Part shown: positions 5,573 through 34,310 of the stretch, piece by piece
Layout: each line of letters starts with the position of its first letter
Numbering within the stretch: the stretch's first letter is position 1
NCBI RefSeq assembly: GCF_014490035.1
Contig: NZ_CP061008.1
Location: 2,418,001 to 2,482,000, forward strand
Reading direction: 5' to 3'
DNA length: 64,000 bases
DNA from: Achromobacter xylosoxidans
GTDB taxonomy: Bacteria; Pseudomonadota; Gammaproteobacteria; Burkholderiales; Burkholderiaceae_B
Notes under the pieces: model-generated
Seen by the model: only the letters and a program-made list of their open reading frames with translations
What the model was told of the DNA's origin: nothing
Database searches by the model: none
Translations under genes and position numbers: made by a program

Positions 5573-5685
5573 GCCGGGGTCGGTCCGCGCAGCGAGCGGC
5601 AGTCCCGTCCCGGCCACGGCAGTAAGATCAGCGTATTCCCGGCGCGTTCCGCGCCAGCCGCCTCGTCCCTGTCCGGAGTCCAGCC

Positions 5686-19973: not shown

Positions 19974-20228
19974 TTATTCGATGGGCTCGCGCATCACCAG
20001 CACCGCGATGGTGTGGTTTTTCCAGAACACCTGATGGATGCGGGGCGCGAGCGCACGCAGCTCCTCGGGACCCGTGCCGTCAAACGTCACCAGGACGGCT
20101 GGGCGCTCCCCCTCGCTCGGCACGCGCTGGATGCGGTCGAAGGACGGAAAGCCGTACTTCATGAGAAAACTCCGGATGTCCTCGTCCGAGGTGCTTTCTT
20201 CCACGTGGTTGATCAGCAGGGCAGCCAT
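19974..20228 (-). CDS. Small RRM-like RNA-binding protein
   Basis: An 84-residue protein with a beta-alpha-beta-beta-alpha-beta pattern: strand AALLINHV (RNP2 position), helix SDEDIRSFLMKYG, strands SFDRIQRVP and RPAVLVTFDG (RNP1 position), helix GPEELRALAPRIHQVFW, and final strand TIAVLVMRE. The aromatic RNP residues of classical RRMs are not obvious, so RNA binding is a hypothesis. It starts 46 bases after the PPK2 gene on the same strand with AAGGAG upstream, so it is probably cotranscribed with ppk2. Confidence 0.65.
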   Translation of the reverse strand: MAALLINHVEESTSDEDIRSFLMKYGFPSFDRIQRVPSEGERPAVLVTFDGTGPEELRALAPRIHQVFWKNHTIAVLVMREPIE

Positions 20229-20274
20229 GATCGTTCTCCTTGGGGACTCCGCGGGCGTCGGAGGCGCGCGCCGC

Positions 20275-21096
20275 TCAGAATTTGGCGGGGACCATGCGCA
20301 ACGGATGCCCCGGATCGCGGTAGCCGCCCGCCTTCTGCCGCTTGGGCAGCTTGACCTTGGCCCGCGGCATGCGCTTGTACGGAATCTGGGAAAGCAGGTG
20401 GCTGATGATGTTCAGCCGCGCCTTTTTCTTGTCGTCCGACTGCGCCACGAACCAGGGCGATACGCTGGTGTCCGTGGCCGCGAACATGTCGTCGCGGGCG
20501 CGCGAGTAGTCGTACCAGCGGCTGTAGGAATCCAGGTCCATCTTGGTCAGCTTCCAGACCTTGCGCTCGTCCGTGATGCGGGCTTGCAGCCTGCGGGTCT
20601 GTTCTTCCTCGCTGACTTCCAGCCAGTACTTCAGCAGGATGATGCCCGAGCCGATGATGGCCCGTTCAACCAGCGGCACGCCTTTCAGGAAGATCTTGAC
20701 GTCGTCCTTGGAGCAGAACCCCATCACCCGCTCGACGCCGGCCCGGTTGTACCAGCTGCGGTCGAAGATCACGATCTCGCCCGCCGCCGGCAGGTGGGGC
20801 AGGTAGCGCTGCACGTACATCTGGGTTTTCTCGCGGTCCGAGGGGGCGGGCAGGGCGATCACCCGGAACACGCGCGGGCTGACGCGCTCGGTGATTGCCT
20901 TGATCGTCCCGCCCTTGCCGGCGCCGTCGCGTCCTTCGAAAAGGATGCAGACCTTGGCGCCCGTCTGGCTGACCCATTCCTGGAGCCTGACCAGTTCCAC
21001 GTGCAGCCGGGCCAGTTCCTCGGCGTATTTCTTGCCCGAGAGCTTGGCTTGCGCCAGCGGTTTGTCCTCTGTTGCTGCTTTCTTCTGAGCGTTCAT
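20275..21096 (-). CDS. ppk2: Polyphosphate kinase 2 (PPK2)
   Basis: A 273-residue PPK2-family enzyme, which transfers phosphate between polyphosphate and nucleotides in the cytoplasm. The Walker A motif GRDGAGKGG is at residues 55-63. The Walker B/lid region EIVIFDRSWYNRAGVERVMG and the following WLEVSEEEQTRRLQAR are as in the family. ATG 21096 with GGAGTCC upstream is preferred to a GTG at 21150. The length fits a single-domain PPK2. A second PPK2 lies at 46721. It is followed by the RRM-like gene and is divergent from the efflux operon. Confidence 0.92.
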   Translation of the reverse strand: MNAQKKAATEDKPLAQAKLSGKKYAEELARLHVELVRLQEWVSQTGAKVCILFEGRDGAGKGGTIKAITERVSPRVFRVIALPAPSDREKTQMYVQRYLPHLPAAGEIVIFDRSWYNRAGVERVMGFCSKDDVKIFLKGVPLVERAIIGSGIILLKYWLEVSEEEQTRRLQARITDERKVWKLTKMDLDSYSRWYDYSRARDDMFAATDTSVSPWFVAQSDDKKKARLNIISHLLSQIPYKRMPRAKVKLPKRQKAGGYRDPGHPLRMVPAKF

Positions 21097-21169
21097 GACG
21101 GACTCCAGAATATGCTGCGCGGTAAGGGTGGGAGGGTTCGAATTTTTCACTGTAGCGCCGACCGTTGGC

Positions 21170-21183
21170 GCTTGTACACAAGC
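21170..21183. promoter_or_regulatory. Palindrome between ppk2 and efflux operon
   Basis: GCTTGT-AC-ACAAGC sits in the 245-bp divergent gap between ppk2 (start 21096) and the efflux operon (start 21342). The position allows it to be an operator for either side; no regulator gene is adjacent. It may be chance, though 6-bp perfect arms in an AT-richer patch are suggestive. Confidence 0.35.
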
Positions 21184-21341
21184 TCGCCGCAGCAGTACTT
21201 TTTATCTAGTGCCTGCGTCAAAACGATCCGCTGGCGGTAAGCGGAAAAGGTCAATAGAATCAATTCGCACGCCGCGCTTCGGCAAGGCTGGAGCTGCGTC
21301 GTGGACCTTGGCGGTTAGGCTCTACACGGACCCGATACCCG

Positions 21342-22889
21342 ATGTCGCCGCTGACCTGTTCGAATCGGCTGTTGCTGATCGGCATGCTCTGCCTGGGCGG
21401 CTGCATGCGTGTGGGGCCGGACTTCGAGCCCCAGCGCACCAGCTGGGCCGCGGACTGGAGCACACCCGCGCTGCAGCAGGCCAGCCGCCAGCAATTGCAG
21501 CCGGACGCCCGGCAGTGGTGGCAGATCTTCGGCGATCCCATCCTGGAGGCCCTGATCGCCCAGGCCGACGCCAATAACGCGGGCCTGCGCATCGCCGGCC
21601 TGCGCATCATGGAAGCGCGCGCGCAGCTGGGCATCGCCCAGAGCGGGCGCTACCCGCAATCCCAGGTGGTCGGGGCCAACGCCCTTTACCAGCACCGGTC
21701 CTCGCGTTCGGCCGAAGGCAACCCGCGCCCCAGCAGCTTCTGGCAATACAGCGCCGGCTTCGACATAGGCTGGGAGCTGGACTTCTGGGGCCGGTTCAGC
21801 CGCGCCATCGAGTCGGCCGACGCCCTGTACTTCGAGGCCCAGGCCAATCGCGACGACGTGCTGGTGCTGCTGCACGCGCAGGTGGCCGAGAGCTACTACG
21901 CGCTGCGCACCGCCGAGGCGCGGCTGCGGATCGCCCGCGACAATGCCGCCATCCAGAAGCGCAGCTACGAAATCACGCAAAAGCTGTTCCGCAGCGGCGA
22001 AACCGACGAACTGGACCTGCAGCAGGCCCGCACGCAGTACCTGAGCACGCTCGGCACCATTCCCGAATTCGAAAGCCAGATCATGCGGACCCGCAACGCC
22101 CTGGCGGTCCTGGCGGGCCGGCCGCCCGGTCCCATGCCGGAACTGGACGACAAGACGGCGGAGGTGCCGCTGGTCGACCGCGCCGTGCTGCAGGACGTGC
22201 CCGCCAATCTGCTGCTGCGCCGTCCCGACGTCCGCGCAGCCGAACTGCGCATCGCCGCGCAGTCGGCGCAGGTGGGCGTGGCTGCGGCGGACCTCTATCC
22301 CTCGTTGACCTTGCTGGGCAGCATCGCCTGGTCCGCCACCTCGTTGGCGGGCACGGCGGGCGGCGCCGCGCTGCTGGCCGGCCCCGTCCTCAGCTGGAAC
22401 GTGTTCGACCACGGCCGCCTGCAAAACAATGTGCGGGTGCAGGACGCCCGGCTGCAGCAGCTGATCGTGGCCTACCAGGACGACGTCCGGCAGGCGGCGC
22501 GCGAAGCCGACGACGCGGCCAGCGGCCTGATCAAGGCGCTGGAACGCGACGGCATCCTGCAGCAGTCGGCGCAGGCCGCGGGGCGTTCGCTCACGCTGGC
22601 CAACGCGCTCTACCGCGAAGGCTATACCGATTTCCAGCGGGTACTGGACGCGCAGCAGGCGCTGGCCGTCCAGCAGGATGCGTACGTCGTGAACCGGGGC
22701 GGCGCCGTGAGCGACCTCATCGCCCTCTACAAGGCCCTGGGCGGCGGCTGGTATAGCGCGGAGCCGGTGCTCGACCCGGCGACCCGCGAACAGATGCGGC
22801 AGCGCACCGATTGGGGCGATCTGCTATCCGAACCGGCGCCTGCCTCCGCCGCCGCCGTGTCCGCTCAAAAGGTGCGATCCGATGAGTGA
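21342..22889 (+). CDS. NodT-family outer-membrane efflux lipoprotein
   Basis: A 515-residue RND/EmrAB-type outer-membrane factor. The N-terminus is a lipoprotein signal with lipobox LGGC (Cys at about 21), then the family opening MRVGPDFEPQ. It has two OEP repeats: residues about 60-250 (WWQIFGDPILEALIAQA, WELDFWGRFSRAIESA) and about 290-470 (LLLRRPDVRAAELRIAAQSAQVG cut across, VLSWNVFDHGRLQNNVR). The last about 25 residues are Ala/Ser-rich. It overlaps the next gene by eight bases (22882-22889), so the operon is tightly coupled. Confidence 0.93.
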   Translation: MSPLTCSNRLLLIGMLCLGGCMRVGPDFEPQRTSWAADWSTPALQQASRQQLQPDARQWWQIFGDPILEALIAQADANNAGLRIAGLRIMEARAQLGIAQSGRYPQSQVVGANALYQHRSSRSAEGNPRPSSFWQYSAGFDIGWELDFWGRFSRAIESADALYFEAQANRDDVLVLLHAQVAESYYALRTAEARLRIARDNAAIQKRSYEITQKLFRSGETDELDLQQARTQYLSTLGTIPEFESQIMRTRNALAVLAGRPPGPMPELDDKTAEVPLVDRAVLQDVPANLLLRRPDVRAAELRIAAQSAQVGVAAADLYPSLTLLGSIAWSATSLAGTAGGAALLAGPVLSWNVFDHGRLQNNVRVQDARLQQLIVAYQDDVRQAAREADDAASGLIKALERDGILQQSAQAAGRSLTLANALYREGYTDFQRVLDAQQALAVQQDAYVVNRGGAVSDLIALYKALGGGWYSAEPVLDPATREQMRQRTDWGDLLSEPAPASAAAVSAQKVRSDE

Positions 22890-23991
22890 CTCGCCGTCCC
22901 CGCCCGCCGCGGCCCCCGCGCCGGATCCCGCAAAAAAGGGCGTCCTTTGGACGGTCCTGTTCATCGTGCTGAGCCTGGCCTGGTATCTGCTGGCCGACCG
23001 CTATACGCCGTACACGCAGCAGGCGCGGGTGCAGGCCTTTGTCGTGCCGGTGGCCTCCGAGGTTTCGGGGCGCGTGACCCGGGTGTATGTGCGCAACAAC
23101 CAGGACGTCGAAGCTGGCGCGGCGCTGTTCGACGTCGACCCGGAGCATTACCGCATTGCCGTCGACCGCGCCCGCGCGGACCTGGAGTCCACGCGCAGGC
23201 AGATCGGCGCCGGCACCGCGGGCATCGATTCGGCGCAGGCCTCTTTGCGCGCGGCCCAGGCCAACGAGCTGAAAGCCCGCCAGGACAGCACCCGGCTCGA
23301 AGGGTTGTACCGCCAGGACCAGGGCACCGTCTCGCTGCGGCGGCTGGAAATCGCGCGGGCGAATCTGACCCAGGCCATCAGCCAGGTCGCGGCCGCGCGC
23401 GCCGAGGTGCAGCGCGCGCGCGAACAGGAAGGTGGCAGCGAGGAAGACAACGCCAAGCTGCGCAGCGCCGCCGCCGCCCTGGAGAAAGCCGAGCTGGACC
23501 TGGCCAATACGCAGGTGCGGGCGCGTTCCGCAGGCTTGATCACCGACCTGCGCACCGACGCCGGGCAATTCGCCGCCGCCGGCAATCCCGTCATGACGCT
23601 GATCGCGATCCACGACGTCTGGATCAGCGCTGAAATGACCGAGAACAACCTGGGCCACATGGAGCCCGGCACGCCGGTGGCCATCATCCTGGACGCGCTG
23701 CCCGGGCAGATCTTCAAGGGCCGCGTGCGCAGCGTCGGGTATGGCGTCAACGTGGGGCCCGGCTCACCGCCCGGCAGCCTGCCCACGGTGCAGAACAGCC
23801 GCGACTGGCTGCGGCCCGCGCAGCGCTTTCCAGTCATTGTGGAATTCGATCCCGGCGACTTGCCGGCGTTGAGCGGCGTGCGCGTGGGCGGCCAGGCCGA
23901 GGTCATGGCGTTTCCCAGTTCCGGCAATCCGCTCAACCTGCTGGGCCGCGCATACATGCGGCTGATGAGCTGGCTTTCCTATGCATACTGA
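22882..23991 (+). CDS. HlyD/EmrA-family membrane fusion protein
   Basis: A 369-residue periplasmic adaptor. One N-terminal transmembrane helix (residues about 22-38, VLWTVLFIVLSLAWYLLA), then the biotinyl-lipoyl half-motif VVPVASEVSGRVTRVYVRNN, a long Ala/Arg/Gln-rich coiled coil (residues about 100-200), the second lipoyl half ANTQVRARSAGLITDLRTDAG, and beta-barrel HDVWISAEMTENNLGHMEPG. It links the NodT protein to the DUF2955 membrane protein, whose start overlaps its end by 11 bases (23981-23991). Confidence 0.92.
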   Translation: MSDSPSPPAAAPAPDPAKKGVLWTVLFIVLSLAWYLLADRYTPYTQQARVQAFVVPVASEVSGRVTRVYVRNNQDVEAGAALFDVDPEHYRIAVDRARADLESTRRQIGAGTAGIDSAQASLRAAQANELKARQDSTRLEGLYRQDQGTVSLRRLEIARANLTQAISQVAAARAEVQRAREQEGGSEEDNAKLRSAAAALEKAELDLANTQVRARSAGLITDLRTDAGQFAAAGNPVMTLIAIHDVWISAEMTENNLGHMEPGTPVAIILDALPGQIFKGRVRSVGYGVNVGPGSPPGSLPTVQNSRDWLRPAQRFPVIVEFDPGDLPALSGVRVGGQAEVMAFPSSGNPLNLLGRAYMRLMSWLSYAY

Positions 23992-25039
23992 TCCCGATCC
24001 CCGCGGGCGACGCGCCCTGCGCGTGGGCGCGGGCACCGCCTTCTGCACGGCCATCAGCTACGGCCTGGCCCTGCCCATCCCCATGGTCGCGCCGGTGCTG
24101 GGCGTCATGCTGTTGGCATCGATGAACCGGCCCCTGTCGTTCAAGAGCGGGCTGGGCCTGCTGCTGATGGCGCTGCTTGCCACCGCGATCGGCCTGCTGC
24201 TGAGTCCCTTGCTGCGCTACTACCCTCTGAGCGGGGTGCTGCTCATCGCACTGTGCCTTTACTTCGCCTTCCGTCACGGCCTGCGCGGCGGCAATGGCCT
24301 GCTGTCGACCTTTCTCATCATCGGGTTGACCATGATTTCCGCCGCCGGCACCGTCGACTTCGCGCTGGCCGCCCTGGTGATCGAAGCGCTGGGCAAAGGG
24401 CTGCTGGTCGCGGTCCTGGCGCTGGGCGGCTGCCATCTGCTGTTCCCGGAGCCAGCGGCCGCGCCCGCGCCGCCCGCGGCGCCGGTCCTGCCGCCGGACG
24501 CGGCCAGCCGGCTGGCCCTGCGGGCCGCGCTCGTGGTGATGCCGGCGTTCCTGCTGGCGCTGACCGACCCGCTGGGCTACATGCCCATCATCCTGAAATC
24601 GGTCAGCCTGGGGCGCCAGAGCTGCGTCACCGCCGCGCAGGGCGCGGCCCGCGAACTGCTGGGCTCGACCCTGCTGGGCGGCGCGCTGGCGGTCGCCTTC
24701 TGGTGCGCTTTGAGCCTGTTCGTGAACCTGTGGATGTTCTTTCTCTGGATGCTGCTGTTCGGCCTCATGGCCGCGCGCAAGCTCTACCGGCTGGTTCCGA
24801 CCCGCCATCCGCCCAGCTTCTGGCTGAACACGCTGGTGACGCTCGTCATCCTGCTGGGCCAGTCAGTGCAGGACAGCGCCGCCGGCAAGGACGTCTACAC
24901 CGCGTTCGCGGTGCGCATGGGCTTGTTCATCGGCGTCACGCTCTATGCCTGCCTGATGCTGCGCCTGCTCGAACCCCGGGCGCCGGACAGCCGGGAACCC
25001 CGTCGGAATCCTTCAACCGCAGTCCCCTCAGACGCTTGA
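23981..25039 (+). CDS. DUF2955/FUSC-like inner-membrane transporter
   Basis: A 352-residue membrane protein of the DUF2955 group, related to aromatic acid exporter/FUSC proteins. About ten hydrophobic segments form two similar halves: VGAGTAFCTAISYGLALPIP with PVLGVMLLASMNRPLSFKSG in the first, and MPAFLLALTDPLGYMPIILK plus LFVNLWMFFLWMLLFGLMAA (shortened) in the second. In this operon it takes the place of EmrB as the energy-coupled component of a tripartite exporter. Substrate unknown; aromatic carboxylates are a family-based guess. Confidence 0.85.
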   Translation: MHTDPDPRGRRALRVGAGTAFCTAISYGLALPIPMVAPVLGVMLLASMNRPLSFKSGLGLLLMALLATAIGLLLSPLLRYYPLSGVLLIALCLYFAFRHGLRGGNGLLSTFLIIGLTMISAAGTVDFALAALVIEALGKGLLVAVLALGGCHLLFPEPAAAPAPPAAPVLPPDAASRLALRAALVVMPAFLLALTDPLGYMPIILKSVSLGRQSCVTAAQGAARELLGSTLLGGALAVAFWCALSLFVNLWMFFLWMLLFGLMAARKLYRLVPTRHPPSFWLNTLVTLVILLGQSVQDSAAGKDVYTAFAVRMGLFIGVTLYACLMLRLLEPRAPDSREPRRNPSTAVPSDA

Positions 25040-25053
25040 ATCAGGAGGCAGCC

Positions 25054-25551
25054 ATGTCATTGCCAGACGAACCGGCCCCACCCTCGCACTCGGCGGGGTG
25101 GCGCTTCAAATGCGGGATCGGATTGTTCATCATCGCCTTCGCCCTGTGGTTCCTCCTTCCGGTGGCGGGCTATATGGACGTGCCGGGTCCGCGCATCGCC
25201 GCGTTGACCGGCACCATCTTCATCGCCAACAAGGTCTTGCTGCTGAGCTGCATCGCAGTCATGGGCAAGGAGGGCTTCCAGCGGCTGAAGTCCATCGTGT
25301 TCGGCCAGGCCAAGAAACTCGCTCCCGTGCAGAAGGTTGGCCCCGTGCGCCATGCCATCGGCCTGGTCATGTTCCTGCTGCCCATCCTGACCTCGGCGCT
25401 GGAACCCTACATAGACGAAATGTGGCCGGGCCTGCGGCCCAATCTGTGGCAGGCCCAGCTGGCCGGAGACCTCATGCTGATTGCCAGCTTCTTCGTGCTG
25501 GGCGGGGATTTCTGGAACAAGCTGAGGGCGCTGTTCGTGCGCACGGTGTAG
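25054..25551 (+). CDS. Small membrane protein following the exporter
   Basis: A 165-residue protein with four predicted membrane segments at residues about 20-42 (IGLFIIAFALWFLLPVAG), 50-75, 100-120 and 135-152. The start at 25054 follows CAGGAGGCAGCC, 14 bases after the DUF2955 stop, so it is the fourth gene of the efflux operon. The pattern resembles what databases call transporter suffix domain proteins; I am not sure of the match. A role as accessory subunit is inferred from position only. Confidence 0.7.
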   Translation: MSLPDEPAPPSHSAGWRFKCGIGLFIIAFALWFLLPVAGYMDVPGPRIAALTGTIFIANKVLLLSCIAVMGKEGFQRLKSIVFGQAKKLAPVQKVGPVRHAIGLVMFLLPILTSALEPYIDEMWPGLRPNLWQAQLAGDLMLIASFFVLGGDFWNKLRALFVRTV

Positions 25552-25644
25552 CGGGCAGGGCGCCACGATCGAAGCCGGCGTTTTCGTAGGAAAATGCCGG
25601 CTCGCGTTCCGACGCGCAACCTCAGCCATCAACCAGGACCCGCC

Positions 25645-26433
25645 ATGCCGCAACTCGACATCTATCAGGTAGACGCCTTCACTGCCGCGCCTTTCGGCGG
25701 CAACCCCGCAGCGGTCGTGCCGCTGCAGGCCTGGCTGCCGGACGAAACGCTGCAACGCATCGCAGAAGAAAACAACCTGTCCGAAACCGCCTACTTCGTG
25801 CGCAAGGGCGATGTCCACGAGCTGCGCTGGTTCACGCCCGCGGTGGAGGTGGACCTGTGCGGCCATGCCACGCTGGCGTCGGCCTGGGTGCTGTTCGAAC
25901 AGCTGGGCGCAACGGAAGACGTGCTGCGCTTTGCCACGCGCAGCGGCGAACTGCAGGTGCGTCGCGCGGGCGACAGGCTGGCGATGGATTTTCCGGCCAA
26001 GCGGCCCGAAGCGCAGCCGATCCCGCCGGGCCTGCTGCAGGCGCTGGGCCTGCCGGGCGCGCAGGCGTTCTACAAGACGGACGACTATCTGGTGGTGATC
26101 GACGATGAATCGCGCATCGATGCCCTGAAGCCGGACTTCGCCGCGCTCGCGGGCTTCGACACGCGCGGGGTGGCGGTGACGGCGCCGTCGGCGCAATTCG
26201 ATTTCGTGACACGCTGGTTCGGGCCGCGGGTGGGCGTGAACGAGGATCCGGTGACCGGCTCGGCGCACACCTCGTTGGCGCCGTACTGGGCCCAACGCCT
26301 GGGCAAGCGCAGCCTGAGCGCGCAGCAGGGCGGGGCGCGCAAGGGGCAGTTGCAATGCGAGGTGCTGGATAACGGCCGGGTGATCATCAGCGGCCAGGCG
26401 GCGTTGTACCTGCGCGGCACGATCTTCATCTGA
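25645..26433 (+). CDS. PhzF-family isomerase
   Basis: A 262-residue PhzF/YddE-like protein. It opens MPQLDIYQVDAFTAAPFGGNPAAVV, with the family GGNPAAVV, then the catalytic-region ENNLSETAYFV containing the conserved Glu, VDLCGHATLASAW, and near the C-terminus EDPVTGSAHTSLAPYW (each shown in part). Members use general acid/base isomerisation; most bacterial copies have no known substrate. The start at 25645 is chosen because it begins the first strand; an upstream ATG at 25594 adds 17 unconserved residues. Monocistronic. Confidence 0.9.
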   Translation: MPQLDIYQVDAFTAAPFGGNPAAVVPLQAWLPDETLQRIAEENNLSETAYFVRKGDVHELRWFTPAVEVDLCGHATLASAWVLFEQLGATEDVLRFATRSGELQVRRAGDRLAMDFPAKRPEAQPIPPGLLQALGLPGAQAFYKTDDYLVVIDDESRIDALKPDFAALAGFDTRGVAVTAPSAQFDFVTRWFGPRVGVNEDPVTGSAHTSLAPYWAQRLGKRSLSAQQGGARKGQLQCEVLDNGRVIISGQAALYLRGTIFI

Positions 26434-26482
26434 GGCCGGGCGGGGCGCAGCCCCGGCTCGCGGCGGCGTAACAAAAGAGACG

Positions 26483-26511
26483 TTGACACGGTTTATGCTC
26501 AACACTAGCAT
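26483..26511 (+). promoter_or_regulatory. Sigma70-like promoter of nadAB
   Basis: TTGACA (26483-26488) and TAGCAT (26506-26511) are separated by 17 bases, matching a sigma70 -35/-10 pair (6/6 and 4/6). Transcription would begin near 26518, about 60 bases before nadA. The first palindrome overlaps the -35 end and the whole -10. Confidence 0.7.
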
Positions 26512-26519
26512 AAACCGTG
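26487..26519. promoter_or_regulatory. Long perfect palindrome, nadA operator 1
   Basis: 13-bp perfect arms CACGGTTTATGCT (26487-26499) and AGCATAAACCGTG (26507-26519) around CAACACT. It overlaps the nadA promoter, so a bound repressor would block RNA polymerase. A run of seven T follows (26524-26530), so it could also act as the terminator of phzF; the match of its core to a second site argues for an operator. Confidence 0.65.
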
Positions 26520-26538
26520 CTCTTTTTTTGCCCAATAA

Positions 26539-26555
26539 ATGCTCAATATGAGCAT
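26539..26555. promoter_or_regulatory. Second palindrome, nadA operator 2
   Basis: ATGCTCA-ATA-TGAGCAT, with the same ATGCT-N7-AGCAT core as the site at 26495-26511 and an identical centre spacing of 44 bp (about four helical turns). It lies between the inferred transcription start and nadA. Two equal sites on one face of the helix suggest cooperative or looped repression. The regulator is not in this window. Confidence 0.65.
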
Positions 26556-26579
26556 AAAATCTCGCGAGGAGACGCCTCC

Positions 26580-27719
26580 ATGGACACCCCCAATCGCCGG
26601 TACGTCGAATTCGATCTGCCTGCCACACCGAGCTGCCCCAGCGCCGTCGGCCAGGCCTGGGCCCGCGTGCCCGAACCCTTGCCAGCCAGCGAACGCGCCG
26701 CCTGCGTGGCGCGCATACGCGAACTGCTGGCGCGGGAGCGCGCCGTGCTGGTCGCGCACTATTACGTCGATGCGGAGTTGCAGGAACTGGCCGAACAGAC
26801 CGGCGGCTGCGTCGGCGACTCGCTGGAGATGGCGCGCTTCGGCCGCGACCATGAGGCCCGCACGCTGGTGGTGGCCGGCGTGCGCTTCATGGGCGAGACC
26901 GCCAAGATCCTGAGCCCGGACAAGCGCATCCTGATGCCGGACCTCGACGCCACCTGCTCGCTGGACCTGGGCTGTCCGGCCGCCGATTTCGCCGCCTGGT
27001 GCGATGCCCATCCGGACCGGACGGTGGTGGTCTACGCCAATACCAGCGCTGAAGTGAAGGCGCGCGCGGACTGGGTCGTGACCTCGTCGATCGCGCTGGA
27101 CGTAATCGCCGACCTGCATGCGCGCGGCGAGAAAATCCTGTGGGCGCCGGACCGCCATCTGGGCGACTACGTGCAACGCCAGACCGGCGCCGACATGCTG
27201 CTGTGGCAGGGGTCCTGCCTGGTACATGACGAGTTCAAGGGCACCGAACTGGAACTGCTTCGCGCCGAGCACCCGCAAGCCAAGGTGCTGGCGCATCCGG
27301 AATCGCCCGCCGCCGTGCTGGCGCAGGCCGACGTGGTGGGCTCGACCACGCAGCTGATCGATGCCGCGCGCAAGTTCGACGCGGAGCTGCTGATCGTCGC
27401 GACCGACCAGGGCATCCTGCACAAGATGCGCGCCGCAGCGCCCGGCAAGACCTTCCTGGCCGCGCCCACCGCGGGCAACAGCGCCAGTTGCAAGAGCTGC
27501 GCGCATTGCCCCTGGATGGCCATGAATGCCCTGGGCAACCTGGCCGGGACGCTGGAGCATGGTCGCAACGAAATCACACTGGACCCCGCGCTGGGCCTGC
27601 GTGCCAAGGCGCCGATCGACCGCATGCTGGACTTCGCGGAACGGCGCAAGCGCCGCGTGCAGGCCAGCGGCGACTTCGCGCGCGACACGGCGCTGTATGC
27701 CAGCGTCGGGCCGGCCTAG
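26580..27719 (+). CDS. nadA: Quinolinate synthase NadA
   Basis: A 379-residue NadA, which condenses iminoaspartate with dihydroxyacetone phosphate to quinolinate in de novo NAD synthesis. The [4Fe-4S] ligands are visible as Cys126 (DLDATCSL), Cys213 ([10 protein letters not shown]) and Cys310 in [10 protein letters not shown]. Cys304 and Cys307 form the extra CxxCxxC motif. [13 protein letters not shown] and [12 protein letters not shown] are the substrate-side motifs. The start at 26580 follows CGAGGAGACGCCTCC. It is first in an operon with nadB, 20 bases downstream, and lies behind two palindromic operators. Confidence 0.97.
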
Positions 27720-27724
27720 GGACT

Positions 27725-27738
27725 AGCGGAGGTCCGCT
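27725..27738 (+). promoter_or_regulatory. Small hairpin masking the nadB ribosome site
   Basis: AGCGG (27725-27729) can pair with CCGCT (27734-27738) around loop AGGT, placing the GGAGG Shine-Dalgarno of nadB inside the structure. The nadA stop is at 27717-27719, so a ribosome terminating there would cover and open it. That would couple nadB translation to nadA. Inference from sequence only. Confidence 0.45.
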
Positions 27739-27739
27739 C

Positions 27740-29302
27740 ATGGAATTCGACGTCATCATCATCGGCAGCGGCCTGGCCGGCATGGCCGCGGCGCTGGAAC
27801 TGGCCCCGCGCAAACGGGTCGCCCTCGTGTCCAAGGGCGAACTGCGCGACAGCGCCAGCAACCGCGCCCAGGGGGGCATTGCCGCGCCGCTGGGCGCCGA
27901 CGACAGCATCGAGGCGCACGTCAACGATACCCTGGTCGCGGGCGCCGGCCTGTGCGATCTGCCGGCCACGCGGAACATCATTTCCCGGGCCTGCGGCGCG
28001 ATAGCCTGGCTGCAGGAGCAGGGCGTCGCGTTCACGCCGGAGCTCGGCGGATTGCATCTGACGCGTGAAGGCGGGCACGGCCTGCGCCGTATCGCGCACG
28101 CGGCGGACGCGACCGGCAGCGCCATCGTCGCGGCCCTGGAGGACCGCGTGCGGCGGCAAGCCGGCATCACGTTGCTGCAGGCGCATTGCGCCGTGGACCT
28201 GATCCTGGACGGCGCCGCAGGTACGGCTGCGGCGCGTTGCCGCGGCGTGCGCCTGCTGGACCTGCGCAGCGGACGGATTTTCGATGCGTCCGCCAGCCAT
28301 GTCGTGCTGGCCACGGGCGGCGCGGGGCAGGCATACCAGACGACTACCGCGCCGCCGGCCGCGACCGGCGACGGCATCGCCATGGCCTGGCGCGCGGGCT
28401 GCCGGATCGCCAACATGGAGTTCACGCAATTCCATCCTACCGGCCTGCACCATGCGCAAGCGGGAGGATTCCTCATTTCCGAGGCGGTGCGCGGCGAGGG
28501 CGGCATACTGCGCCTGCCCGATGGCGCGCGCTTCATGCCGGCCTACGATGCCCGCGCCGAGTTGGCGCCGCGCGATATCGTCGCCCGCGCGATCCAGGGC
28601 GAAATGGAACGCCATGGACTGGAGTGCGTGTACCTGGATATCAGTCACCAATCGCCGGGATTCCTGCAGGAACATTTTCCTACCATCCAGGCGCGCTGCC
28701 TGGCGCTGGGCATCGACATCACGACGACTCCCATCCCGGTTGCGCCCTCCGCGCATTACACCTGCGGCGGCATCGTTGCCGACCAGGCCGGACGCAGCAA
28801 TCTGTCCGGTTTGTACGCGGTGGGCGAAGCCGCCTGCACCGGACTGCACGGCGCCAACCGCCTGGCCAGCAATTCGCTGCTGGAGTGCGTGGTGACGGGA
28901 CGGGCTGCCGCGCAAGACATCTTGGGCCAGGTGCCGGCCGATGTTCCCCATCGAACTCCGGCTGCCGACGCAACCGCCGTGCCGGCGTCGCCCGATCTGG
29001 CGCGGCTGCGGCGCGACCTGCGCCAGTTGATGAGCCGGGACGTGGGCGTGCTGCGCAGCGATGCCTCGCTGGCGCGCGCGGCCGCATTCATCGGTCCGTT
29101 GCGAGCAGAGACGGACGCGCGGTTGCTGCGCGAGGGCTTGAGCCTGGAATTGCTGGAGCTGCGCAACCTCGCCCTGGCGGCTGATCTCATCGTGCGGGCG
29201 GCGAGTGCGCGCGGTGAGAGCAGGGGGGCGCATTTCAACCGGGACCGGCCTGGCTCGGACGCCGTGGATTTGCGGCCGCGCGCGCCTGCCGCAACCGCGT
29301 AG
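27740..29302 (+). CDS. nadB: L-aspartate oxidase NadB
   Basis: A 520-residue flavoprotein oxidising L-aspartate to iminoaspartate for NadA. The FAD motif GSGLAG is at residues 9-14, then NRAQGGIAAPLGADDS, EGGHGLRRIAHAADATG, the active-site EFTQFHPTGLH, RPRDI-type LAPRDIVARAIQGE, SAHYTCGGI, and GEAACTGLHGANRLASNS. The C-terminal helical domain LRQLMSRDVGVLR closes it. The start at 27740 is fixed by GGAGG. No nadC follows; the next gene is on the other strand. A separate aspartate dehydrogenase gene is at 57908. Confidence 0.96.
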   Translation: MEFDVIIIGSGLAGMAAALELAPRKRVALVSKGELRDSASNRAQGGIAAPLGADDSIEAHVNDTLVAGAGLCDLPATRNIISRACGAIAWLQEQGVAFTPELGGLHLTREGGHGLRRIAHAADATGSAIVAALEDRVRRQAGITLLQAHCAVDLILDGAAGTAAARCRGVRLLDLRSGRIFDASASHVVLATGGAGQAYQTTTAPPAATGDGIAMAWRAGCRIANMEFTQFHPTGLHHAQAGGFLISEAVRGEGGILRLPDGARFMPAYDARAELAPRDIVARAIQGEMERHGLECVYLDISHQSPGFLQEHFPTIQARCLALGIDITTTPIPVAPSAHYTCGGIVADQAGRSNLSGLYAVGEAACTGLHGANRLASNSLLECVVTGRAAAQDILGQVPADVPHRTPAADATAVPASPDLARLRRDLRQLMSRDVGVLRSDASLARAAAFIGPLRAETDARLLREGLSLELLELRNLALAADLIVRAASARGESRGAHFNRDRPGSDAVDLRPRAPAATA

Positions 29303-29336
29303 GCGCGGGCAGGGCAGTTTCCGGCCGGCCGGCGGC

Positions 29337-30191
29337 TCAGGAAACCCCGGTCAGCAGATGCTGCGCGGCGCCCGTCGCCGCGCGCCTGAAACGCGACGGC
29401 GACACGCCCATGTGCTCGCGGAAGAAGCGGGAGAAATTGCCGGGCGTGGAGAAGCCCAGGTCCAGCGCCACGGAGGTCAGGGGCTGCTCCTGGTGCACCA
29501 GCAGGCGCACGGCTTCTTCGACGCGCACGGCGCTCCAGAAGACTTGCGGCGTGGTATTGAGCTGATCGCGGAACAGCGCGAAGAAATGGCCGCGCGACAG
29601 TCCCACGCGGCTGGCGACCTCTTCCGCCGTGATCGGTTCATGGGCGTGCTCGCGCATGTAGGCGATCGCCGCGCGCAGCCGGCGGTCCAGCGCCGGCGCC
29701 GCGGGCATCTGGTTGCGCGGGCGATCCGGCTCGATGGACGATTCGATCGCCGCTTGCAGCAGGGCCTCGACCTCGGCATCCAGGTCCGCGCCGGGGTGGT
29801 CCTGCGGCGCCACGATCTTGTGCAGCAAGCGCCAACAGCCCTGGCGCACCGCCGCGTCGATGGGCACGCCCGGCGCCGCGAAGTGGAAGGGGCGGCCCGT
29901 GGCGGCGCGCCGTTCGTCCAGCCAGGGCTTGGCGATGTAGAGCACCAGGAAAATGGCCGGGCCCGACCGTTCAAGCAGCCTGGCGTCGTGCGATTCGTAC
30001 GTATTGGTGCCTAGCGCCAGATGTTCGCTGTAGGGGACCGGAGTCTGGCCGACATGGCCCTGCACGCGCGCGCCGCCCAGCCACAGGGCCAGCTGCACTT
30101 CCGCATGCGCGTGCGCGATCAGGTCGTCGCGCAGTTCCAGCACGACGGCGCGGCCGAACGCGCCTTCGTGCAAGGCGTAGGTCTCCTGCAT
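29337..30191 (-). CDS. AraC-family transcriptional regulator
   Basis: A 284-residue regulator with an N-terminal cupin (residues about 10-110: HAHAEVQLALWLGG, YSEHLALGTNTYESHD) and a C-terminal AraC domain (residues about 175-270: VASRVGLSRGHFFALFRDQL, VALDLGFSTPGNFSRFFREHMGVSPSRFR). It is divergent from an alpha/beta hydrolase-amidohydrolase pair with a 258-bp gap carrying two direct repeats, so these genes are its likely targets. The inducer is unknown. Confidence 0.88.
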   Translation of the reverse strand: MQETYALHEGAFGRAVVLELRDDLIAHAHAEVQLALWLGGARVQGHVGQTPVPYSEHLALGTNTYESHDARLLERSGPAIFLVLYIAKPWLDERRAATGRPFHFAAPGVPIDAAVRQGCWRLLHKIVAPQDHPGADLDAEVEALLQAAIESSIEPDRPRNQMPAAPALDRRLRAAIAYMREHAHEPITAEEVASRVGLSRGHFFALFRDQLNTTPQVFWSAVRVEEAVRLLVHQEQPLTSVALDLGFSTPGNFSRFFREHMGVSPSRFRRAATGAAQHLLTGVS

Positions 30192-30330
30192 CTCTGTCTC
30201 CCGTTTTTCTTATCGCCTCGCCGCGCAAGCCTGGGCTTGCGTGCGGGCGGGTGCGGCGCTCCGGGAATTTTATGGGCGTTTGCGCGCTTCTCCACGCTAG
30301 GTGTATTCACTAGGCACAAAATCTGACTCT

Positions 30331-30358
30331 GCGATAAGTCCGCGCACCCGGCGATAAG
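30331..30358. promoter_or_regulatory. Two direct repeats, candidate AraC binding sites
   Basis: GCGATAAG occurs at 30331-30338 and again at 30351-30358, exactly 20 bp apart. That is close to the two-turn spacing at which AraC-type proteins usually bind direct half-sites. They lie between the divergent AraC and hydrolase genes. A further hairpin (CGCAAGC-CTGG-GCTTGCG, 30224-30241) lies in the AraC leader. Confidence 0.45.
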
Positions 30359-30449
30359 CGCGCCGCCGCCTGCGCCGATACAGTCCTGAAAAATCGTCGG
30401 CGCAATGCCGATGCAGACAGCGACTGTTCAGATAAAGGGAGACGGCGGC

Positions 30450-31232
30450 ATGAGCACGCAACACGTCAACGGCATGGCCGTGGAGATCGACGGCGAGGGG
30501 CCGGCACTGTTGTGCATACACGGCCTGGGCGGTTCCTCGAATACCTGGACGCCCGTCATGGGCGCCTTCGACGGCTTTCGCGTGATCCGTCCCGACCTGC
30601 CGGGCAGCGCGCGCTCGGCGTTGGGCGAAAAGCGCCTGTCCATCGCCGCCTATGTGGACGCATTGGCCGGACTGCTGGACGTACTGGACGTAGATGCGGC
30701 GCACATCGCCGCGCATTCGCTGGGTACCGTGGTCGCCCAGCATCTTGCCGTGACGCATCCGGGCAGGGTCAAGTCGCTGGCCTTGTTCGGCCCGCTGGCC
30801 GCGCCGCCGGACGCGGGGCGGCCCGGCATCCGTGCGCGGGCGCAGCTTGCCCGCGGTGGCGACGCGGCCATGCAGGAGATCGCTGACGCCATCGTCAAGG
30901 CCGCGACCAGCGCCCAGACCAGGCAGGATCAGCCCGCCGTGCTGGCGCTGGTGCGCGAGAGCGTGATGCGCCAGCCGCCGGAAGGCTATGCGCAGAGCTG
31001 CGAGGCGCTGGCGGATGCGCAGCCGGCCGCCGCGGAAGCGATAGGCGTACCGACTGTCCTGATTACCGGCGACCAGGACGGCGTGGCGCCGCCCGCCAAC
31101 GTTGACGCCCTGGCCGCGCGCATCGCTGGCAGCCGCCGCATCGTGCTGGACGGATGCGGCCACTGGACCACCTACGAAAAGCCCCAAGCCTGCATGCAGG
31201 CCCTGCGGGAGTTCCACGCGGCGCTGCGCTAG
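30450..31232 (+). CDS. Alpha/beta-fold hydrolase
   Basis: A 260-residue hydrolase. Oxyanion motif LLCIHGLGGSSNTW is at residues about 20-33. The nucleophile elbow AHSLGT puts Ser near residue 91. The acid is probably in VLITGDQDGVAPP (Asp about 211), and the base His in LDGCGHWTTYEKP (about 240). The start at 30450 has GGGAGACGGCGGC upstream; the in-frame ATG at 30405 lacks a site. It is followed 66 bases later by an amidohydrolase, so the two may act in sequence on an ester/amide substrate. The product is unknown. Confidence 0.87.
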   Translation: MSTQHVNGMAVEIDGEGPALLCIHGLGGSSNTWTPVMGAFDGFRVIRPDLPGSARSALGEKRLSIAAYVDALAGLLDVLDVDAAHIAAHSLGTVVAQHLAVTHPGRVKSLALFGPLAAPPDAGRPGIRARAQLARGGDAAMQEIADAIVKAATSAQTRQDQPAVLALVRESVMRQPPEGYAQSCEALADAQPAAAEAIGVPTVLITGDQDGVAPPANVDALAARIAGSRRIVLDGCGHWTTYEKPQACMQALREFHAALR

Positions 31233-31298
31233 GCCACGTTTTCCTGGCGTTTCAACATAAGAAATCGGCCCCTCGACGCGGGCCGGAGGAGACCTGTC

Positions 31299-32606
31299 AT
31301 GTCCAGAATTGCCATTACCAATGTCGCCATCTTCGATGGCAGCGGCATGGAACCCTTTCAAGGCGAAGTGTTGATCGATGGCGCGCGCATCGCGCAGGTC
31401 GCGCGCGCGCCTGAGCAGGTGAGCCGGGAGGGCGCGCGCCTCATCGACGGGCGCGGCCGCTTCCTGATGCCCGGCATGACGGAAGCGCACACGCATTTCT
31501 CCTGGAACGACCAGCCCACGCTGGCGGCGATCCAGTTCATGCCGCCGGAGGAGCACATTCTCTGGTGCGTGCGCGTGGCCAAACGCTATCTGGAAATGGG
31601 CTGGACCTCGGCCATCGGCGCGGCCGCGGCCAAGCCGCGCCTGGACGTGGTGCTGCGTAACGCCATCAACGCCGGCGAATGCCCGGGGCCGCGTTACCTG
31701 GCGGGCAGCCAGGAGATCACCACCATAGGCGCGCTGGGCGACAACTCGCTGCCGCACATGCCGTTCGACGAGCTTAGCTTCGGCAGCGTGTGCTGTGGCC
31801 CTGAAGAGATCCGGCGCTCGGCGCGCACCTTCATCAAATACGGTGTCGATCACCTGAAGATAAATCTGTCCGGCGAGTACATCGCCGGGCTGCCGGCCGA
31901 GATGTCGCCGTTCGCAGAAGACGAGATCGCCATGCTGGCGAACGAGGCCAAGCGCTATGGCAAGCGCGTCGCGGCGCACGCGCGCTCCAGCGAGTCGGTC
32001 AAGCAATGCGTGCGCCACGGCATCGAGATGATCTACCACGCCAGCTTTGCCGATGAAGAGGCGCTCGACATGCTGGAAGCCAGGAAAGACAGCCACTTCG
32101 TCGCGCCGGGCATAGGCTGGCTGATCAGGACGGCCTTCAACGCGTCCGAGTACGGCATCACGCCCGCCATCGCCGAGCAGATGGGCTACAAGCGCGAACT
32201 GGAAATCGCCTCGGAGTCGCTGCGCAAGATGCACAAGCGGGGCATCCGCATCCTGCCCGGCGGCGACTACGGCTTTGCCTGGATGCCGCACGGCACCAAC
32301 GCCCGCGACCTGCAATACTTCGTGGACTACATCGGCATGACCCCGACCGAAGCGCTGGTGTCCGCCACTCGGCTGGGCGGCGAGATCATGCAACGACCGC
32401 AGGAATTGGGCATGCTGCGTCCCGGCTATCTGGCGGACGTGGTCATGGTCGACGGGGATCCGCTGAAGGATCTGTCGCTGCTGGTGGATCCGGAGAGGAT
32501 CTTGCTGGTTGTGAAGGATGGGGAGGTGTGCAAGGACAGTCTCCGGCACGATGCGGACGCGGAACTGCTGACTGCCGAAGACAGGGATGCGGCCTTAGTA
32601 CATTGA
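31299..32606 (+). CDS. Amidohydrolase superfamily protein (imidazolonepropionase-like)
   Basis: A 435-residue metal-dependent amidohydrolase. The HxH metal site is His64-Thr-His66 in MTEAHTHFSW. A bridging Lys is likely in VDHLKINLSG, further His in VAAHARSSE and IYHASFADE, and the Asp ligand in LPGGDYGF. The end LRPGYLADVVMVDGDPLKD is typical of imidazolonepropionase-like and prolidase-like composite-domain enzymes. The start at 31299 follows GGAGGAGACCTGTC. It is second in a unit with the alpha/beta hydrolase. Substrate not deducible. Confidence 0.9.
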   Translation: MSRIAITNVAIFDGSGMEPFQGEVLIDGARIAQVARAPEQVSREGARLIDGRGRFLMPGMTEAHTHFSWNDQPTLAAIQFMPPEEHILWCVRVAKRYLEMGWTSAIGAAAAKPRLDVVLRNAINAGECPGPRYLAGSQEITTIGALGDNSLPHMPFDELSFGSVCCGPEEIRRSARTFIKYGVDHLKINLSGEYIAGLPAEMSPFAEDEIAMLANEAKRYGKRVAAHARSSESVKQCVRHGIEMIYHASFADEEALDMLEARKDSHFVAPGIGWLIRTAFNASEYGITPAIAEQMGYKRELEIASESLRKMHKRGIRILPGGDYGFAWMPHGTNARDLQYFVDYIGMTPTEALVSATRLGGEIMQRPQELGMLRPGYLADVVMVDGDPLKDLSLLVDPERILLVVKDGEVCKDSLRHDADAELLTAEDRDAALVH

Positions 32607-32747
32607 CCGACGCGGCGTTACACACACAAGGAGTTGGAGCGCGCAGCGTCGGGACCTGAGCATTCGTAGCGAGCTTGCATTATTGAGCTTGCAGATCAAT
32701 TTCCGCGAACAGATTCACCACGGGCGGAAGAAATGCAATCGGGAGTG

Positions 32748-32984
32748 TCATTCCTCGGCATCTTTGTCCATTGCTTCAAATTGGGCAAAGACGTGGCCCG
32801 CAGGAATGACGTTTCCCTGCGATATTTCGCGCCGGCCTCGATCGATTAGCTTGAGCAGGGCATAGGCTTCCGCCTTATCCCCGCTGCGATTGCAGTATGG
32901 AATCGCCTGGTCTTGATGCGAGCGTTTCACGGCATGGGCCTCCAGTGCAAGTACCGACAGGTGCAACTGTAGACTGGAGTTCAC
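32748..32984 (-). CDS. Small protein with antitoxin-like C-terminus, possibly decayed
   Basis: A 78-codon frame starting at GTG 32984 with only a weak GGCGG upstream. The last about 45 residues (GDKAEAYALLKLIDRGRREI, then QGNVIPAGHVFAQFEAM) resemble the dimer/toxin-wrapping tail of small plasmid-type antitoxins (RelB/ParD/stability-determinant style). The first about 30 residues do not form a convincing DNA-binding motif. No toxin gene adjoins. It may be a relic in a lower-GC patch. Family assignment is tentative. Confidence 0.35.
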   Translation of the reverse strand: MNSSLQLHLSVLALEAHAVKRSHQDQAIPYCNRSGDKAEAYALLKLIDRGRREISQGNVIPAGHVFAQFEAMDKDAEE

Positions 32985-33036
32985 TTATCCGCCGGCTTTT
33001 CTCCCATTATTCGGACAGAAAGTAGGCGAAGCGGTA

Positions 33037-33073
33037 CGAGCAAACCTGGTTGCATCAATGCTGGGTTTGCTCG
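33037..33073. repeat. Inverted repeat at edge of low-GC gap
   Basis: Ten-base perfect arms CGAGCAAACC (33037-33046) and GGTTTGCTCG (33064-33073) with a 17-base loop, eight bases beyond the end of the DadA-like gene. Without a T-run it is an uncertain terminator; it could be the terminal remnant of a small mobile element. Confidence 0.45.
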
Positions 33074-33080
33074 CCTCAAC

Positions 33081-34310
33081 TCAAGCCTCTCCCACCCCCT
33101 CCCTCACGCTAGCCGCCAGCATCTGCGCCGTCGCCGCCGACAAGGTCCAGCCCAGATGCCCATGCCCCGTGTTGTAGAACACGCCGGGCCGCCTGCCCGG
33201 ACCCACGCGGGGCATCATGCTCGGGGTCATGGGGCGCAGCCCGCACCACGGCACCACGCGCGAAGTTCGGATGCCGGGGAAGTGCTTGCGGGTCCAGTCC
33301 ACCAGCGGCTGCACGCGTTCGGCGCGGATGTCCATGTTGAAGCCGTTGAACTCGGCCGTGCCGGCCACGCGGAAGCGGTCGCCGAGGCGGCTGGTGACGA
33401 TCTTGGCGGCTTCGTCCAGCAGGCTGACGTGCGGTGCGGCCGCCTGGCTGGCGGCGTCGTCCAGGTGCACGCTGATGGAATAGCCCTTGACCGGGTAGAT
33501 GTTGAGCGTGTCGCCCAGCTGCCTGGCGAACTGCCGGCTGACGGCGCCGGCGCAGACGACGATGGCGTCGGCCTCGTGCTGCTCGCGGCGCGCGCCGCCC
33601 TCGCGCGCGACGTCGAGCACGTAGGGCGCGCCGTCCACGCTGATGTTGCGGATGTCGGCGTCCTGCGCGAAGCGCACGCCGCGGCGCTCGCAGGCGCGGG
33701 CCAGGCCGCTGGTGAACTTGTGGATGTCGCCGGTGGCGTCCGAGGGCGTGTAGAAGCCGCCATGGCAAGGGGTTTGCAGCGTGGGTTCGATGCTGCGCGC
33801 TTCCTCGGGCGACACCGCGTAGCGCTCCAGCCCGCCTTCCTGCAGCAGCGCATTGGCGCGGCGCGCGGTCTCGAAGCTGGTGGCGTCGTGGTAGATATGC
33901 AGGATGCCGCGGCGCTCCAGGTCGAAATCTATGCCTTCTTCTTCCGCCATGGCGTACAGGTGCTGGCGCGCGGCAATGGCAAGCCGCGTGGTCTCGATGG
34001 TGTTGCGGCGGTAGTTGCGGATCTGTCCGATGAACTGCGCCAGCCAGGAGTACTTGTGCCAGCTGAAGCGGGGATTGAGCAGCAGCGGCGCGTTGTGGCG
34101 GCCGAGCCAGCGCAGGCCTTTCATGATGGTGGCGGTGCTGTTCCAGACCTCGGCGTTGCTGGCCGACAACTGGCCGCCGTTGGCGTAGGAAGTCTCCATG
34201 GCCGGATAGCGCTGGCGGTCGTAGACGGTGACGTGGTATCCCAGTTTGCTCAGGGCATAGGCGGACGTGACGCCGGTGATACCGGCGCCAATGATGGCGA
34301 TGCGGGGCAT
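33081..34310 (-). CDS. DadA-like FAD-dependent amino-acid dehydrogenase
   Basis: A 409-residue FAD oxidoreductase of the D-amino-acid dehydrogenase small-subunit (DadA) family. FAD motif IIGAGITGVTSAYALSKLGY is at residues 4-23, then TSYANGGQLSASNAEVWN, GIDFDLERRGILHIYHD, PVKGYSISV, and the C-terminal GHGHLGWTLSAATAQML. The start at 34310 follows TCTGGAGCC. Its leader contains a tandem glycine riboswitch, so the enzyme probably responds to glycine. It may be oxidising glycine or a D-amino acid to feed the respiratory chain; the glycine link is inference from the riboswitch. Confidence 0.9.
   Translation of the reverse strand: MPRIAIIGAGITGVTSAYALSKLGYHVTVYDRQRYPAMETSYANGGQLSASNAEVWNSTATIMKGLRWLGRHNAPLLLNPRFSWHKYSWLAQFIGQIRNYRRNTIETTRLAIAARQHLYAMAEEEGIDFDLERRGILHIYHDATSFETARRANALLQEGGLERYAVSPEEARSIEPTLQTPCHGGFYTPSDATGDIHKFTSGLARACERRGVRFAQDADIRNISVDGAPYVLDVAREGGARREQHEADAIVVCAGAVSRQFARQLGDTLNIYPVKGYSISVHLDDAASQAAAPHVSLLDEAAKIVTSRLGDRFRVAGTAEFNGFNMDIRAERVQPLVDWTRKHFPGIRTSRVVPWCGLRPMTPSMMPRVGPGRRPGVFYNTGHGHLGWTLSAATAQMLAASVREGVGEA

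Follow-up and report, generated by a model that had tools for sequence, protein, structure and literature searches.

A predicted NadQ-repressed nadA promoter in Achromobacter xylosoxidans and a T-tract at a fixed distance from its downstream operator

The described system closest to the locus presented here is the regulon of NadQ (COG4111) in alpha- and betaproteobacteria, for which the available parts of the published account give the consensus ttATRCTCannntGAGYATaa, name nadABC as predicted core targets and state that the N-terminal domains of NadQ and NrtR differ (PMC5343134). Other systems are related through the way in which a bound protein stops an elongating polymerase. RNA polymerase I comes to a stop on T-rich DNA, 15 bp short of Reb1, and is then freed by a hairpin; in the sections available of the same source, a roadblock combined with T-rich sequence but lacking a hairpin gave no release, and Lac repressor and LexA were slow or poor roadblocks (PMC12366685). 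In bacteria, C.Kpn2I, PurR and LacI are described, in the accessible text, as proteins that stall the elongating polymerase from downstream of the start (PMC6237814, PMC10310618), and E. coli polymerase has been reported to halt 14 nt upstream of an EcoRI site, against Gln111 (PMC5499547).

The features of the locus are listed in Table 1, with positions in the window, that is, the whole stretch of 64,000 nucleotides of A. xylosoxidans DNA that was analyzed (contig NZ_CP061008.1, positions 2,418,001 to 2,482,000, forward strand). Several elements proposed in the initial annotation were found as described: a near-consensus promoter, TTGACA-17-TAGCAT, a palindrome with perfect arms overlapping it, and a second palindrome with the same ATGCT-N7-AGCAT core exactly 44 bp downstream. 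The loop of the first palindrome measures 7 nt. The promoter at site 1 is the single promoter-like match within 26300-26700, and nadB is probably in one operon with nadA, as judged by its position. The remark that no regulator gene lies nearby is uncontradicted by the reading frames listed for 20000-34000 of the window, the gene for the predicted regulator being located elsewhere in the genome. A leader RNA was considered and dropped, since the sole Rfam match (E 0.69) was far under its gathering score.

Table 1. Predicted features of the nadA region (positions in the window)
Feature	Position	Strand	Observation
phzF-family isomerase gene, upstream, same strand as nadA	25645..26433	+	TIGR00654 136.6 bits, cut-off 76.2
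-35 box TTGACA, nadA promoter	26483..26488	+	exact in 16/21 two-site nadA promoters, one mismatch in 3/21
Palindrome with 13-bp arms around site 1; together with the T-tract it resembles an intrinsic terminator for transcripts entering from upstream	26487..26519	+	
Predicted NadQ operator site 1, core ATGCTCAACACTAGCAT	26495..26511	+	2 mismatches against ATRCTCANNNTGAGYAT
-10 box TAGCAT, right half of NadQ site 1	26506..26511	+	TAGCAT in 19/21 two-site nadA promoters
T7 tract, 3' end 9 nt before site 2	26523..26529	+	
Predicted NadQ operator site 2, core ATGCTCAATATGAGCAT	26539..26555	+	0 mismatches to published NadQ core
nadA, quinolinate synthase, predicted regulated gene	26580..27719	+	TIGR00550 344.2 bits, cut-off 262.9
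nadB, L-aspartate oxidase, downstream of nadA	27740..29302	+	NF006567 661.5 bits, cut-off 629

The initial annotation had ascribed the two palindromes to a dedicated NAD-pathway repressor whose core matched no regulator known to it. The first part of that proposal stands, with two predicted operators of one NAD repressor, one of them overlapping the promoter; the regulator is not a novel one, because the core is that of the published NadQ consensus (PMC5343134, in the parts available) and nadQ is present in the genome, so that the idea of an uncharacterized NAD repressor was dropped. Site 2 fits the core of the consensus without mismatch and site 1 with two. The nadQ gene was located at 5984196-5985164 of contig C1 of the same genome (G000), around 3.5 Mb from nadA and beside nadC, with a gene for a TctC-type binding protein also near it, a neighbourhood also reported in Bordetella and Achromobacter (PMC11452294, as far as the accessible text goes). 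Its product, of 323 amino acids, matches entry 7q91 ("NADQ transcription factor") and three more entries (E 1.8e-118) and carries an NrtR-type winged helix (PF21906). Predicted NadQ sites precede the de novo NAD genes nadA and nadC in this genome, and nadC shares the two-site layout of nadA. The likeness to the described regulon therefore extends to the motif, the nadA, nadB and nadC targets, the clustering of nadQ with nadC and the sequence of the regulator. The region is very probably a NadQ-repressed nadA(B) promoter, with repression through both predicted operators; such a promoter, as predicted here, is of a known kind, and the identity of the binding protein is answered by known biology. 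Binding of the sites by another regulator, be it NrtR, NiaR, NadR or an unlisted protein, is highly improbable: NrtR repressors do share the homologous winged-helix domain, but the motif and the co-occurrence of nadQ favour NadQ, whose product gave no Nudix domain match and reached 52.7 bits, far under the NrtR equivalog cut-off of 400.

Two genomes of the same genus (G013:C44:425697-426584 and G040:C1:6361273-6362103) also code for another NadQ-like protein, with 38-39% identity along most of its length, and on the opposite strand between nadQ and nadC a small gene, perhaps of the ribbon-helix-helix (ParD-like) type as judged by reading, starts at about position 5608 (plus) of the nadC locus, L010.

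The specificity of the motif depended on the form in which it was searched. In the window, ATGCT-N7-AGCAT was found twice against 0.10 expected, and two cores were present in none of 100 shuffles, so that their occurrence by chance is unlikely. Over the whole genome, a check proposed in the initial annotation, the bare core is not specific: it was found at 11 places in 6.76 Mb (reversed control, 1), nine of them other than the nadA sites, of which one viewed in its surroundings corresponded to nadC. The form flanked by A/T, WWATRCTN7AGYATWW at no more than one mismatch, occurred at four places, a pair upstream of nadA and a pair upstream of nadC, all free of mismatches, with the reversed control also giving 4. 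The relaxed ATRCTC-N5-GAGYAT was perfect at two places, the second sites of nadA and nadC, and at no more than one mismatch matched 16 places against 8 in the control.

Comparisons across genomes were made with 45 nadA loci, 30 from a family search and 17 from a genus search, two being shared; in the family search nadA was found in 38 of 121 genomes, of which 30 yielded loci. Labels for the presence of nadQ came from separate nadQ searches for same-genus loci and for other genera, and a genome was counted as lacking nadQ when it was absent from the match list for other genera. An upstream site (up to 2 mismatches; background, 2 matches in 116,061 bases) was present in 30 of the 32 loci from genomes with nadQ and in none of the 13 from genomes without it, so that, where the status of nadQ is known, absence of the site follows that of the regulator. 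The two exceptions among loci with nadQ were L050, whose locus includes only 108 bp upstream of nadA, and L062 (genome G154), where 400 bp were searched. In named genomes the site was found in 2 of the 80 best nadA loci of 594 candidates with a relative (L126, Pigmentiphaga; L165, a Comamonas MAG), a count taken regardless of nadQ, the other 78 including many Burkholderia and relatives. Absence of the core from orthologous nadA genes, which the initial annotation had held would speak against it, is thus a fact for those 78 loci and for the 13 without nadQ, while the loci with nadQ go the other way. As a separate observation, nadA was found in 17 of the 43 genomes of the same genus (G000-G042) and nadQ in all 43; the genomes lacking nadA would seem to need an outside source of pyridine or quinolinate salvage through nadC.

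For analysis of promoter architecture, two-site promoters were compared. The 21 nadA rows comprised 20 that qualified at up to 2 mismatches and, added by hand, L031, in which site 1 carries 3; 52 nadC-type rows came from 58 nadQ loci, six being left out as having no usable second site, and 50 of these 52 had nadC verified as the gene downstream, with no match in L080 and L081. Site 2 was picked in these rows at no more than one mismatch and as not being TAGCAT. Of the two mismatches that site 1 has to the NadQ core, one turns its right half into the -10 box TAGCAT and is what that box needs, so that operator and promoter are fused. In the two-site nadA promoters the gap between TTGACA and TAGCAT was 17 or 18 bp, and the same TTGACA-17/18-TAGCAT fused to site 1 could be observed in both operons: among 51 nadC-type promoters with site 1, TTGACA was intact in 46 and had a single mismatch in 4, and TAGCAT was found in 48 and TAGTAT in 2, although site 1 was picked there by ATRCT-N7-AGYAT, so that only the first letter of TAGCAT is independent evidence. 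The left flank of site 1 was nearly always TT in many loci, and that of site 2 nearly always ended in A; the latter departs from the published NadQ consensus, which has tt on the left. The two sites lay 42-57 bp apart at nadA and 45-103 bp apart in promoters of the nadC type. This variation leaves the same helix face, claimed in the initial annotation, unsupported, and looping on one helix face was dropped for the same reason. In the nadC locus the second site (L010, 5353-5369, minus) contains the predicted nadC start codon (ATACTCAAAATGAGCAT), so that NadQ bound there would occupy the start of the gene.

Between the two sites lies a run of 5-8 T in the coding strand, which keeps its place with respect to site 2. 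In all 21 two-site nadA promoters its 3' end was exactly 9 nt before the core of site 2, and in nadC-type promoters at 9 nt (37), 10 (6), 11 (2) or 13 (2), which makes 47 of 52, the remaining five having no T5 run. Its distance from the -10 box varied from 16 to 31 at nadA and from 26 to 73 in nadC-type promoters, and start-site slippage was dropped as its function on account of this variation over both operons. In the 30 bp before site 2 of the 73 rows there were 68 T5 and 2 A5 runs, and in the 30 bp after it 1 T5 and 4 A5. A genus-weighted profile, built on 14 gene-by-genus groups since rows within one genus are not independent, gave a T fraction of 0.80-1.00 at -15 to -11 of site 2. The pattern T5-N8..11-site was present in 93 of 268 genomes of the family, covering 15 of 43 genera, and its A5 version in 1 of 268; in an order-wide sample the T5 pattern was found in 5 of 300 genomes, two of them in another family. 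There was no T5 run before the site in any of the 9 single-site nadA promoters, and no T peak like that of site 2 before site 1. The fixed distance, the strand bias and the absence at single sites indicate that the tract is tied to the downstream operator and is strand-specific. No mention of paired operators with a first site fused to the -10 box, or of a T-tract, was found in the available parts of the NadQ regulon account (PMC5343134), nor was any description of a T-tract linked to a second operator found in the literature searched, that on roadblocks and operator attenuation included. The operator-linked T-tract is the part that looks new.

Both operons also present a GC-containing hairpin followed by a U run, the form of an intrinsic terminator (26487-26529 at nadA; L010 5406-5386, minus, at nadC). 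As RNA, the palindrome around site 1 has a stability of -18.0 kcal/mol, which was equaled in none of 200 shuffles. Pairs 1-8 of its outer arm were standard in 12-14 of 14 same-genus nadA loci, with changes on both sides at pair 4 (GC in 4, AT in 8) and pair 5 (GC in 13, TA in 1); pairing kept through such changes suggests an RNA role. With transcription assumed to begin five bases downstream of the -10 box, the predicted nadA start is inside the right arm, so that only RNA reading in from upstream could form this hairpin, and most nadA transcripts from the site-1 promoter are too short for a hairpin. The initial annotation had allowed that it might be only a phzF terminator. This did not hold, the hairpin being a predicted operator too: a phzF match was found in the available upstream DNA of just 7 of the 45 nadA loci, which separates the terminator from phzF, and loci with no such match upstream retain the T-tract, on which ground the phzF-only reading was dropped. 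The palindrome would serve at once as operator, as part of the promoter and probably also to end transcription of the upstream gene. At nadC, a hairpin directly before the T-tract has a stem of at least 5 pairs in 34 of 34 same-genus leaders and -11.9 kcal/mol in the genome studied here. Among its pairs 1-7, five are standard throughout the 23 distinct sequences and the other two in 17 and 15 of them; since four of the five never vary, support from covariation is slight. In several promoters of other genera, the hairpin ahead of the T-tract is short or weak, and in L205, from another family, an unrelated 8-bp hairpin was read by eye before a T6 at the same place.

From these data we propose that NadQ would bind both sites and repress twice. 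At site 1 it would block access of the polymerase, while NadQ on site 2 would add a further lock, a roadblock to elongation that leaves polymerase halted on the T-tract, so that the pair would combine a block of initiation with a repressor-gated, two-part terminator. NadQ would release according to the nucleotide state of the cell; the title of a 2022 paper on its biochemistry reportedly calls it ATP-responsive. The T7 covers positions -16 to -10 of site 2, and given where E. coli polymerase halts before EcoRI, a polymerase held up by NadQ would be expected over the tract. It would hold a weak rU:dA hybrid 10-16 nt upstream of site 2 and be released, with the leader hairpin helping at nadC. 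We hold roadblock-assisted release at site 2 only as a tentative reading, less likely than not, and consider plain terminators or attenuators slightly less likely still and a bend distinctly unlikely, because the hairpin is short or weak in several other genera and has no room in most nadA transcripts, RNA polymerase I was not released without one, and LacI and LexA performed slowly or poorly there as roadblocks.

If the T-tracts and hairpins were plain intrinsic terminators, stopping read-through from upstream at nadA and acting as a short leader attenuator at nadC, the distance to site 2 would be without function. The terminator-like score at both operons, the stability of the two hairpins, the both-sided changes at pair 4 of the nadA arms and the unrelated hairpin of L205 agree with this. 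It sits badly, however, with the persistence of the T-tract where the arms are not extended or no phzF match lies upstream, and with a 3' end fixed at -9 of site 2 in all two-site nadA loci while the distance from the -10 box is not; a strong unconditional terminator at nadC would, moreover, be expected to silence its own gene. The fixed distance would agree with an A-tract bend or a minor-groove contact that aids the binding of NadQ to site 2 or, through a loop, its pairing with site 1, but the bias of T5 over A5 among the 268 genomes, the lack of a peak before site 1 and of T5 in the 9 single-site promoters, and a site-to-site spacing that is not phased go against such a role. A second promoter, taking its -35 from the T-tract and its surroundings and having a -10 that site 2 overlaps, is very unlikely. 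TTTGACC is found at the T-tract region in some nadA loci, but the would-be -10, mostly GAGCAT, misses the first T, at nadC the -35-like letters give way to TTTAAC, TTTACT and others, and 26300-26700 gave no promoter-like match beyond that of site 1.

The proposed release by a NadQ roadblock resembles the Reb1/Nsi1 terminators in that T-rich sequence lies about 15 bp ahead of the site for a DNA-binding protein, with a hairpin before it at nadC (PMC12366685, in the sections available). It differs from them in the bacterial polymerase, in a metabolic repressor as the putative roadblock, in being promoter-proximal and in a hairpin that is not universal; the hairpin abuts the T-tract at nadC in this genus, whereas in yeast it is about 20 nt from the RNA end, according to the same text. 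With C.Kpn2I, PurR and LacI it would share the stalling of an elongating polymerase by a protein downstream of the start, but no T-tract element was found in the accessible text of those reports, where "T-rich" occurs 0 times (PMC6237814) and once, for the Cas12a PAM (PMC10310618).

The geometry of T-tract and operator, found in two operons and 15 of 43 genera of the family, points to downstream operators that may bring their own polymerase-release element. If true, this would explain the role of some second operators inside leaders, and it would tie bacterial repression to the termination logic of RNA polymerase I, through a repressor-gated terminator built like those of Reb1 and T-rich sequence.
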